In this document: positions 12,527 to 15,147 of the stretch, one piece after another
Position numbering within the stretch: position 1 is the first letter of the stretch
How the letters are laid out: the number at the start of each line of letters is the position of its first letter
Assembly (NCBI RefSeq): GCF_023022985.1
Contig: NZ_CP095461.1
Location: forward strand, 3,534,001-3,598,000
Length of the DNA stretch: 64,000 bases
Source: Arthrobacter gengyunqii
GTDB taxonomy: Bacteria > Actinomycetota > Actinomycetes > Actinomycetales > Micrococcaceae
Direction of reading: 5' to 3'
Program-made: the position numbers and the translations under genes
Notes under the pieces: generated by a model
What the model was told of the DNA's origin: nothing
The model's database searches: none
Seen by the model: only the letters and a program-made list of their open reading frames with translations

Positions 12527-12718
12527 CTAGTCCCAGAAACCGCCCGCCCACGCCGCATCCCGCAGATAGTCGCGGGCGGGGCCCACATCCCACACCTCGC
12601 CGCTCGACGCGACTATGCCTTTGTCCCGCAGATCTTCAACAACATCCTCGGTGCATCCCAGGACCTCTGACAGGTCCTGGGAACTGGATGCCACGACCAA
12701 CTCGTTGCGGTTGGACAC
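12527..12718 (-). CDS. Small 63-residue protein downstream of the SpaB_C-like gene
   Basis: A 63-residue acidic protein (MSNRNELVVASSSQD...). The GTG start at 12718 has AAAGGGGA 5 nt upstream. The middle, LSEVLGCTEDVVEDLRDKGI, reads as a helix-turn-helix, then EVWDVGPARDYLRDAA, and the tail is WAGGFWD. It could be a mini winged-helix or a peptide-binding RRE-like protein; there is only one Cys and no Ser/Thr/Cys-rich core, so it is not an obvious lanthipeptide or thiopeptide precursor. It follows the SpaB_C-like gene by 32 nt and is likely co-transcribed. Confidence 0.65.
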   Translation of the reverse strand: MSNRNELVVASSSQDLSEVLGCTEDVVEDLRDKGIVASSGEVWDVGPARDYLRDAAWAGGFWD

Positions 12719-12750: not shown

Positions 12751-13710
12751 CTAATGCCTATCCAACAGGGCTGCTTCTCGTTCGGTGCTCCAGTTGCGCG
12801 CGTACAGACCCAGTGCGGCCTCTTCACGGAGTGAGAGTCCGAGGCGGTTGAGCAGCATGTGCGCCTGATACACCGTCAGGTGCTGTGCACTTCGGCTAAG
12901 CCTGGCCTTGTCCGCCCGGTAAAGATAATTGTCAACGCCGCGGAACCAGCGGCGGCGCCAGTTCGCCACGGCGTTTTCGGCAGCAGTGGCGGCCATCAGG
13001 CGATGGGTGGGTGTCACCTTTGACGCAACCTGAATTGTCATCGCCTGCCTAACGCTTCCGGCCCGCTGTCCGAAACCCGCCGTGCAGCTGCGGAGATGGC
13101 TGTCCCAGTAGTAGTCCCAGGAGATTCGCCGGCGATCCGGCCAGCTTGCGGAATGGGGGCCCTTCATCATGCTGCGTGCGGAATCAAAAAGCAGGAGCGA
13201 TCCAAGGGCCCACCTGTTTTGGACTTTCGGAAACCGTGCCGTGGCCCAGGCCCCCAATTCCGAGGAGAGCTCAAAAACCTCTTCCGCCAGCGCCAAGCCT
13301 TCCGGGCCGCCGTATTTGGCCAGATCGGCCTCCATTCGGGGATTCTGTTGTTCCGCTCCTCCGGGCCCTAAACGGTCCGTCACGGGCTCACTGATCTGCT
13401 GGACCATTTCAAGGTGTCCAATGACGCCGCTGGCCTGGTCCCGCAGTGCGCCCAGAAGGTGCGTCAGCCGTTCAAAAATTTCGGGTTCGCCCAAGAACCG
13501 GACCCTCACGTGCGCGTTGGTCGGCTCCAGGCACCGTGTGTAGTACCACCGTGTGGCCCCGTAGGCCTGAGCTTGGGCCGCCAGCGGGGTAACCAGTTCT
13601 CCAATGATGCCGTCCGCTACATCGAAGCCCCCGGTATAGAAGGAGACTGTCCACCATTGTGCCGTTGGGCGAGTTCGTGAGGCGTTTCGAACTGCTGTCA
13701 GCTGTGTCAT
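12751..13710 (-). CDS. Standalone thiopeptide-type/lantibiotic dehydratase C-terminal domain protein (SpaB_C-like)
   Basis: A 319-residue protein matching the LanB elimination domain/thiopeptide pyridine-synthase family. Visible hallmarks are the opening aromatic strand WWTVSFYTGG, the strand-helix DGIIGELVTPLAAQAQAYGA, the conserved WYYTRCLEPTNAHVRVRFLG (equivalent to WFFIRYxxPxxHLRLR), and a C-terminal helical half. There is no glutamylation domain, so it is either a split LanB elimination subunit, a TclM/PbtD-like [4+2] cyclase or a repurposed fold. GGAGGGG lies 9 nt before the ATG. The upstream leader holds a possible minigene and two GC-rich palindromes; a LuxR-type regulator is divergent. 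No LanC, YcaO or full LanB is nearby. Confidence 0.78.
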   Translation of the reverse strand: MTQLTAVRNASRTRPTAQWWTVSFYTGGFDVADGIIGELVTPLAAQAQAYGATRWYYTRCLEPTNAHVRVRFLGEPEIFERLTHLLGALRDQASGVIGHLEMVQQISEPVTDRLGPGGAEQQNPRMEADLAKYGGPEGLALAEEVFELSSELGAWATARFPKVQNRWALGSLLLFDSARSMMKGPHSASWPDRRRISWDYYWDSHLRSCTAGFGQRAGSVRQAMTIQVASKVTPTHRLMAATAAENAVANWRRRWFRGVDNYLYRADKARLSRSAQHLTVYQAHMLLNRLGLSLREEAALGLYARNWSTEREAALLDRH

Positions 13711-13748
13711 GGCGTGCGTCCCCTCCGGGGTTTGTTGCTTGGTTACCG

Positions 13749-13759
13749 CCGCTGAGCGG
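13749..13759. repeat. Odd palindrome CCGCTGAGCGG in the SpaB_C leader
   Basis: CCGCT, centre G, AGCGG: a perfect 11-bp odd palindrome 39 nt upstream of the SpaB_C-like start codon. It shares the CTGAG core with the one at 13797-13809, so the pair may be RNA hairpins or a repeated operator. Confidence 0.4.
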
Positions 13760-13796
13760 GTGCTGCTGTTTTATTCGTTGTACATCGAGTTGGCTT

Positions 13797-13809
13797 CCCC
13801 CTGAGGGGG
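13797..13809. repeat. Odd palindrome CCCCCTGAGGGGG just after the minigene stop
   Basis: A perfect 13-bp palindrome 4 nt downstream of the minigene TAG (minus strand). As RNA it would form a short GC hairpin with a 3-nt loop. No U-tract follows, so it may be an mRNA-stabilising or attenuating hairpin, or a protein-binding site. Confidence 0.4.
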
Positions 13810-13813
13810 TTTG

Positions 13814-13846
13814 CTAGATCCAGTCCCAAACTTTGGTCATCTTCAT
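13814..13846 (-). CDS. Possible minigene encoding MKMTKVWDWI (10 residues) or MTKVWDWI (8 residues)
   Basis: On the minus strand ATG (13846) begins MKMTKVWDWI and stops at TAG (13814-13816). A perfect AGGAGG with GGGGA continuation lies just upstream: 3 nt before the first ATG, or 9 nt before the second ATG at 13840, which is the better spacing and gives MTKVWDWI. The peptide ends in a W-D-W-I motif. It lies 103 nt upstream of a RiPP-type tailoring gene on the same strand. It could be an ultra-short RiPP precursor, a regulatory leader peptide, or chance. Only the ribosome-binding site, reading frame and context support it. Confidence 0.45.
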   Translation of the reverse strand: MKMTKVWDWI

Positions 13847-14181
13847 TCCCCTCCTGTACCTGCGGCCGGATGTCCAGCCTGTGCGGTTGGTTGACTCCGA
13901 AAGCTTCCCCCGGTGCGCTGCGCCCCGTCTACCCCTTCAGATGCCCGGTTCCTGACATGGCCCGTTTGGCACTTGCCTGCCGAACTTCAGTCCCGGGTCT
14001 TGACCGGAAGGCCGCACGCCGGCACGGAATATGCGCCATCTCTGGCCCCGCTGCGACAATTGCGGCATAGTGGCATTAAGCGGCCATGGCAGGTATTCCC
14101 ACCGCGGCGGTGAGTACGCATCAGGGAACTGAAAGTCCGTTGCTGAGTAATGGTTCTCGGTTGAGTGAAAGGAACGGAGTT
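13847..14181. other. Intergenic region between the minigene locus and the divergent LuxR gene
   Basis: About 335 bp without a convincing coding frame. It must hold two divergent promoters. A possible small minus-strand ATG frame near 13957 (MSGTGHLKG) lacks a ribosome-binding site. If the LuxR gene starts at the upstream ATG (14086) the region is correspondingly shorter. I see no clear operator. Confidence 0.5.
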
Positions 14182-15147
14182 GTGGATGACTTGTCCCAGG
14201 CTGTCTACCGGTACGCCGTAAGCAGCCCGGGCTGGACCGTCGAAGACGCATCGGAGGCGCTGGGTTTCACTACGCGTTCCATTGAAGCGGCCGTCGCGGT
14301 CCTCGTGGAGCACTGCCTGCTGGTGCAGGCCAACGGGGGCCGGCGCAGTTACACGGCAGTCTCCCCCGACGTCGCACTGGCGGAGCTTGTCGATCCGGAT
14401 GAACGGGCACTCCTTGATCTCCGGTCGCGGATCGGAACAAAACGGCGTGAGCTGGCGGCACTGGTGCCCATCTTTGCCGAAGCCAGCCGGCGGATGTCCA
14501 CCGATGCCCAGGTGGAGGTCCTGGAGGACCCCGAGCAGGTAATGCGCATTCTGATCGAATACGCCCGTTCCGCATCCGAATGCGTGCTGATGGCACGCCC
14601 CGGACAAGGCGCCACAGCTGACACCCAGGAGGAAAGCGTCCAGAAGGATGTGGACATGCTGCAGCAGGGGGTCAAACGCCGCACCCTCTACCACTCCAGC
14701 ATCCGGGACCACATGCCCACGCGCAGGGCCGTCGAGATTGTCACTGCAGCCGGCGGAGAATTCAGGACGTTGCCCCACCTGCCGCTTCGGGTCGTGGTTT
14801 TCGACGGCAAAGTTGCAGTGATACCCCGGGCAGCGCATGCCGAAGACCGTGCAGGGCTGGTCATCCGGGATCCCAACGTAGTGTCCATCTTTGTCCGGCT
14901 GTTTGACTTCGCCTGGGAGCAGGCTGAGCCGTTCCTTGCGGAGGAACCGCTTCCACATCAGCTGACCAGCACCCAGCGCTCAATCCTCCGCGCCCTGGCC
15001 GCCGGACATCCTGATGAGGTGATCGCCCGGCGGATGGGCATCAGCGTGCGCACCTGCCGGCGCCACATCGCCAAGATGCTGGATGATCTGGGAGCGGAAA
15101 GCCGTTTTCAGGCCGGAGTGAAAGCGCACCGCGCCGGGTGGATTTAG
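14182..15147 (+). CDS. LuxR-family regulator with N-terminal TrmB-like winged helix
   Basis: About 321 residues. Residues 1-65 form a TrmB-like HTH: AVYRYAVSSPGWTVEDASEA, LGFTTRSIEAAVAVLVEHCL. The middle has a phospholipase-D-like/TrmB sensor pattern (MARPGQGATADTQEESVQKD, LRVVVFDGKVAVIPR). The C-terminal 60 residues are a LuxR HTH: LTSTQRSILRALAAGHPDEV and IARRMGISVRTCRRHIAKML. The GTG at 14182 is preferred because GGAACGGAG precedes it; an in-frame ATG at 14086 would add 32 residues. Regulators of this build in actinomycetes often sit beside specialised-metabolite or peptide loci, so it probably controls the divergent minigene/SpaB_C operon, by inference. Confidence 0.85.
   Translation: MDDLSQAVYRYAVSSPGWTVEDASEALGFTTRSIEAAVAVLVEHCLLVQANGGRRSYTAVSPDVALAELVDPDERALLDLRSRIGTKRRELAALVPIFAEASRRMSTDAQVEVLEDPEQVMRILIEYARSASECVLMARPGQGATADTQEESVQKDVDMLQQGVKRRTLYHSSIRDHMPTRRAVEIVTAAGGEFRTLPHLPLRVVVFDGKVAVIPRAAHAEDRAGLVIRDPNVVSIFVRLFDFAWEQAEPFLAEEPLPHQLTSTQRSILRALAAGHPDEVIARRMGISVRTCRRHIAKMLDDLGAESRFQAGVKAHRAGWI

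Follow-up and report, generated by a model that had tools for sequence, protein, structure and literature searches.

A conserved W-x-W minigene upstream of a standalone SpaB_C gene: a candidate RiPP-like peptide cassette in Micrococcaceae

In the window (the whole stretch of DNA that was analysed, 64 kb), the minus strand reads AGGAGG-N9-ATG ACC AAA GTT TGG GAC TGG ATC TAG, in agreement with an earlier note on this DNA that had described an AGGAGG followed by a tiny frame. The minigene (13814..13840) consists of eight codons plus TAG and encodes MTKVWDWI, with its ATG at 13840, its final base at 13814 and the Shine-Dalgarno (SD) sequence AGGAGG (13850..13855, minus strand) 9 nt 5' of the ATG. 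The note had placed this frame 103 nt upstream of a SpaB_C-like gene, and the distance to the ATG of a standalone SpaB_C (Lant_dehydr_C) enzyme gene of 319 aa (12751..13710, minus strand) was indeed 103 nt. The enzyme matched PF14028 at 1.3e-20 (75 bits) and also passed NCBIfam TIGR03891. A 63-aa companion, p63, starts with GTG at 12527..12718 (minus strand) and ends in ..YLRDAAWAGGFWD, with a strongly conserved RDAAWA-x(3)-W C-terminus. The divergent LuxR regulator proposed earlier was found as a TrmB-like/LuxR-type gene (14086..15147, plus strand; GerE 1.9e-09), with an uncertain start codon and poorly conserved N-terminal residues. Scanning the window neighbours with Pfam and NCBIfam recognised SpaB_C, LuxR, TetR, FMN reductase, aminotransferase and catalase, and no P450 beside the minigene.

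Two starts had been offered for the minigene, the ATG at 13840 and an upstream ATG at 13846 that would yield MKMTKVWDWI. The ATG at 13840 was kept in all eight sequences compared (the window plus L002-L007 and L028, the seven relatives nearest to it), while the codon at 13846 was not ATG in four of them (L003, L004, L006, and L007). We therefore preferred the eight-codon reading, so that the start at 9-nt spacing stood and the upstream one did not. The combination of an SD and a tiny frame is unremarkable in itself, since the window holds seven ATG frames of 5-20 codons preceded by AGGAG or GGAGG, three of them by a perfect AGGAGG; only the minigene ends in W-x-W. Its significance comes from conservation.

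A W-x-W frame was present upstream of the standalone SpaB_C/PF14028 gene in all 29 genomes of this genus (G006 being counted through record L054) and before the enzyme gene in all 50 other Micrococcaceae loci found via p63, giving 79/79 p63-bearing loci in 5 genera. Conservation in homologous loci, the check on which the note had staked its claim, thus came out in favour of the frame. Under a strict rule (W-[DE]-W or W-G-W, a stop no more than 6 residues on, ATG or GTG start), 76/79 intergenic regions held such a frame, against a mean of 0.07 of 79 after dinucleotide-model resampling and 0/79 on the opposite strand; the 79 loci are related and hence not independent. The chance alternative, for which the six other pairs of SD and tiny frame in the window might speak, was rejected on these counts and has a negligible probability. 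The TGG codons were invariant and the surrounding codons varied synonymously or conservatively. The middle codon of the last W-x-W in each of the 79 frames was GAC in 52, GAT in 13, GAA in 7, GAG in 6, and GGC in 1 (D 65, E 13, G 1), and the stop codons were TAA (51), TAG (24), and TGA (4). Proline codons in the frames were CCC (19), CCG (19), and CCA (2). With W codons that never change, synonymous changes beside them and varying stop codons, the frames behave as coding sequence. On this comparative evidence the minigene MTKVWDWI was confirmed as genuine: its sequence is conserved, of coding type and linked to the enzyme gene. As a conserved coding-type frame, it would also qualify as the ribosomally encoded precursor gene that is general to RiPPs.

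The peptides of the genus were 7-17 residues long. The shortest, MKSWDWF (7 aa), occurred in 12 genomes, MTKVWDWI-like peptides (8-9 aa) in eight and MKKATAPVSIKSWEWF-like peptides (16-17 aa) in nine. Records with such frames included, among others, Arthrobacter luteolus, A. citreus, A. koreensis, and A. gandavensis. W-x-W alone was common to the 79 loci, so the motif singled out in the earlier note is the constrained part of the peptide. The residue before it was S, V, N, A or I, the core held no constant Ser, Thr or Cys, and the cores printed for the 79 loci contained no Cys. Given the lack of a constant Ser, Thr or Cys, the Trp pair with its mostly acidic middle residue is the candidate modified or recognised part. 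The presence of the frame in 29/29 genus genomes suggests a basic role rather than that of an accessory antibiotic.

Precursors in the 50 loci of other genera were 33-93 aa long, and 49 of them (44-93 aa) carried, close to the N-terminus, a strongly hydrophobic segment whose 14-residue mean was at least 1.6. This segment is probably a Sec-type signal, in which case the peptide would be exported in most genera. Cores were repeated in 30/50 loci; the number per precursor was one (20 loci), two (23), three (5), four (1) or six (1), and MKKIIGAAAGILVAAAVLAPATPAVGAASWDWPKTVTASWDWPK is an example of a core-bearing sequence. The precursors of genus g8 terminate exactly in WDW. In L113 (2300-2489) the precursor has three SWDWPK cores and lacks the hydrophobic signal part; it looks like a natural intermediate. 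The enzyme profile matched 87/395 Micrococcaceae genomes, eight of them without a p63 match. Seven of these eight (all but G264) were examined, and W/Y-x-W frames were found in all four that had no LanB N-part upstream: G172 and G292 had W-D-W precursors (G172 also has a divergent p63), G036 carries an IYDWP frame of 21-24 aa and G093 an IWAWP frame of 22 aa. Within the genus the enzyme profile matched all 29 genomes, G006 and G022 with a disrupted reading frame. The enzyme gene frame was broken in L028/L047, L054, L114, and L136, naturally or by assembly error, with the W-x-W frame still present.

The earlier note had also considered a regulatory leader peptide. In that case translating the tiny ORF would control the enzyme gene, through its Trp codons or through pairing of the CCCCCTC after the stop with the SpaB_C SD, and the peptide would be functionless. 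The fixed order, with 76-148 nt between minigene or precursor frame and enzyme gene in the 79 loci, is consistent with such control, as is the possible SD pairing in the window, where CCCCCTCAGGGGG just 3' of the minigene stop (13796..13809, minus strand) may base-pair, weakly (z -1.2), either locally or with the SD of SpaB_C. However, the long signal-bearing frames in 49/50 non-genus loci, the repeated cores in 30 of these 50 and the amino-acid-conservative exchange of D and E all argue against a functionless peptide. The minigene contains no more than two Trp codons, and there is no T-run terminator. RNA hairpins 3' of the minigene were not significant (z-scores -1.4 to +1.1, 5 folds), which also disfavours a trp attenuator, and Rfam gave a single chance-level match around the minigene (E 1.1, far below gathering). 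We consider a leader peptide improbable. An element resembling CCCGCTCAGCGGCGGTAACCA / CAGCGGnGGTAACCA lies between the minigene and the SpaB_C gene (13740..13760, minus strand); its strict pattern, CAGCG-N3-6-TAACC, occurred in 38/79 loci against a resampled mean of 0.1, and its RNA folding was not significant.

A LuxR-type regulator was found beside the locus in 24/29 genus genomes (23/28 genomes plus L054) and was divergent in 50/50 non-genus p63 loci. No regulator match was seen within the 1.5 to 5 kb of flanking sequence retrieved for G002, G003, G022, G023, and G024, and other genes take the regulator position in L031, L032, and L047. A CATGTC box before the minigene (13942..13961, minus strand) is a putative regulator site; CATGTC/GACATG occurred in 78/79 intergenic regions (resampled mean 16.9). 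At the regulator end, the box GCCATGGCCGCTTAATGCCA (14071..14090, minus strand) has its counterpart in a TTAATGnCA close to the regulator in 45/79 regions (resampled mean 0.2). A third stretch, GGGGAAGCTTTCGGAGTCAA (13891..13910, minus strand), is a promoter or operator candidate conserved in this genus only: TTTCGGAGTC was present in all members of the three genus subgroups and in no region of other genera.

The p63 profile matched 79/395 Micrococcaceae genomes in 5/32 genera, and its two matches among 394 class-wide genomes were both Micrococcaceae. Most loci encode a p63 of 61-63 aa. Besides the start, R53, D54, A56, W57, A58, and W62 were invariant in 42 aligned rows, from which L138 and L142, reading RDAVWA, were excluded. 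The N-terminal half decays in genus g8 and also in L143, L144, L145, and L155, and the tail is kept. No Pfam or NCBIfam match was found at E<=10 and no PHROG at E<=0.1, and the structure model was too weak for use (pLDDT 60.7, pTM 0.34). The conservation pattern of p63 suits a C-terminally constrained peptide better than a folded regulator. No p63 was found beside the enzyme gene in L198 or L205.

The 319-aa enzyme has the LanB elimination-domain fold and the catalytic His motif. NisB H961 is catalytic (PMC4341554), and we equated H284 with it through the H-x4-R motif spacing. Among the 72 locus proteins, H284 was conserved in 70, N288 in 71 and R289 in all 72; both genus g5 loci (L119 and L120) have Gln in place of the catalytic-type His. 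This His was retained in 70/72 distinct enzymes beside a precursor versus 2/30 distinct orphan paralogues (Fisher p 2e-20, with sequences that are not independent); it was thus lost in 28/30 of the genus orphans examined. The window enzyme has a complete H-x-R-x-R motif (HVRVR). The final Arg was present in 29/72 locus enzymes versus 5/5 usable split LanBs, so the paired Arg is not constant at these loci and activity may be altered or lost.

Such decay would suit a further alternative, in which W-x-W is an unmodified pheromone, exported as in Phr systems or cell-internal in this genus, the SpaB_C fold serves as its binding protein or receptor, and p63 with its Trp-rich tail competes or relays. 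Signal-bearing precursors with 1-6 repeated cores, the regulator and promoter boxes, and orphan paralogues that retain the family and lose the His all point in this direction. Bacillus Phr precursors, which give rise to secreted pheromones of the Phr/Rap type, are likewise short and signal-bearing with a short C-terminal motif. In contrast to Phr/Rap, the peptide here is associated with an elimination-fold protein, and one of three precursors given matched Phr_nterm only at E 0.98, below cut-off and over the signal part alone. Retention of H284, N288, and R289 goes beyond the apparent needs of binding, and the regulator, the expected output, was not found in 5/29 genus genomes. We regard an unmodified pheromone as unlikely.

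We searched for the LanB glutamylation N-domain (PF04738) in six frames and obtained matches in 0/29 genus genomes and 0/21 further locus-bearing Micrococcaceae genomes, in a search that recovered two known divergent partners only at E ~2e-4 and that a more divergent partner could escape. Because 14 standard control genomes gave no PF04738 match, genomes of families f24/f26 served as the positive control, and 6/6 matched at E<=0.001, with four passing the curated cut-off. The elimination-domain fold and His motif would fit a class I lanthipeptide remnant, in which the enzyme would strip glutamate from Ser/Thr residues that an unlinked LanB N-domain has glutamylated. Both the absence of PF04738 from the genus, which disfavours glutamate elimination in trans, and the cores, preceded by S, V, N, A or I and free of Cys, make this very improbable. 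Of the class I characters sought, neither a PF04738 partner nor Ser/Thr with Cys in the core was found; without constant Ser, Thr or Cys in the core, lanthipeptide chemistry is unlikely. The locus thereby differs from class I systems with a LanB or split LanB elimination domain (NisB, MibB; PF14028), as it also does in the final Arg of H-x-R-x-R.

PF04738 lies directly upstream in the five nearest outside relatives (two frames confirmed). These are split LanBs, from which the enzyme descends. G033 and G050 carry a frame of 826-827 aa directly 5' of the enzyme gene, as in split LanBs, and G316 a broken-up counterpart. Other Micrococcaceae (L199, L200, and L201; genera g6 and g23) appear to carry split LanB clusters, an 826-827-aa frame lying just 5' of SpaB_C in L199 and L201. 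A weak SpaB_C match without a PF04738 match was seen in G650, of the same order.

In the enzyme tree, which was rooted for drawing only and has long branches (L198, L199, L201, L202, and L139), the ten genus rows formed one group (100/99). The signal-bearing g5 and g8 loci lay nearer the split LanBs, and a signal-bearing ancestor with later loss therefore fits best. The minigene label required a fewest of three changes, of which the starred branches force one, and owing to the long branches it is unsure how many times the signal was lost. In this genus the precursor would have shrunk to scarcely more than the core, and the natural series from 93 to 7 residues would show how such stripping can proceed.

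Taken with the synteny of the locus across genera, we put the probability that the peptide specified by the minigene belongs to an undescribed RiPP-like Micrococcaceae cassette at roughly 60%. The cassette would comprise the W-x-W peptide, the standalone LanB-elimination-fold enzyme and usually the 63-aa companion, with the divergent LuxR-type regulator normally adjacent and controlling the operon, presumably at the CATGTC boxes. Since the same core occurs in precursors of 7 to 93 residues, there is no common leader, and the enzyme may recognise the W-[DE]-W core itself, using H284 for a reaction independent of glutamyl-tRNA. RiPP systems do not usually pair a Sec signal with a cytosolic modifying enzyme, and this counts against the reading, as do the lack of a regulator match in the flank of 5/29 genus genomes and the failure to find p63 in L198 and L205. 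The earlier note had pointed to the minigene and the enzyme; the long signal-bearing precursors of other genera, p63, the lack of a LanB glutamylation partner and the orphan pseudo-enzyme paralogues come from the present analysis. Our preferred guess at the biology is a signalling role, with which export-type signals, repeats, the nearby regulator and syntenic inheritance are compatible. We give less than an even chance to the wider proposal that these are peptide natural products or pheromones of a new class, in which a glutamylation-free enzyme acts on leaderless W-[DE]-W cores, the core moved one or more times from a multi-copy, exported precursor into a 7-codon minigene, and pseudo-enzyme copies spread within the same genomes as peptide-binding proteins.

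Among known systems, the locus resembles a minimal-precursor RiPP such as the biarylitides and would be a member of no family tested. The biarylitides (BytA/BytO, a pentapeptide minigene with a P450) likewise combine a minigene, an aromatic-x-aromatic core and one adjacent modifying enzyme, and their 18-bp gene escapes automatic detection (PMC13417212, PMC8708641). Here, in contrast, the enzyme has the LanB-elimination fold rather than being a P450, the core is W-[DE]-W, and relatives have long signal-bearing precursors with repeated cores. The thiopeptide pyridine synthases TbtD, PbtD, and TsrL act on dehydrated and azole-bearing substrates, whereas no dehydration or azole machinery was recognised among the scanned window neighbours. 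Titles and abstract starts in the open-licence PMC literature gave no description of a W-x-W/SpaB_C system, which does not prove its absence. If the cassette reading is true, the minigene would be among the shortest ribosomal precursors, the five-codon biarylitide genes being shorter, and a LanB-elimination-fold enzyme would have a role other than dehydration or pyridine synthesis. Gene callers readily pass over genes of this size, and comparable systems may therefore have escaped notice widely.

The genome of the window (G000:C1) also holds five solitary SpaB_C paralogues, L055-L059 (3610410-3611348, 1830086-1831033, 3121097-3121993, 769990-770889, and 1760863-1761756, respectively), and a SpaB_C fragment of 96 nt at 1744037. 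Near L055-L059 neither p63 nor LuxR gave a match, and no W-x-W frame behind an SD was seen. FWG-ending frames before orphans, considered as peptide candidates, proved to be the orphans' own TTTTTTGGGGATGA start context, and a W-T-W at the L073 orphan, within a 54-aa GTG frame that has no SD and runs into the gene, was taken as chance. CATGTC/GACATG occurred before 6/30 orphans (5.4 in resampled DNA) and ATGTCC/GGACAT before 10/30 (5.2 resampled), a mild excess. The upstream sequence CCCATAGTCGC...CGCAGGAAAAG was shared by the orphans L059, L062, L063, L067, L069, and L074, and the start context TTTGGGGATGA by 8/30 orphans. This shared DNA suggests that these orphans were recently duplicated along with their regulatory DNA.
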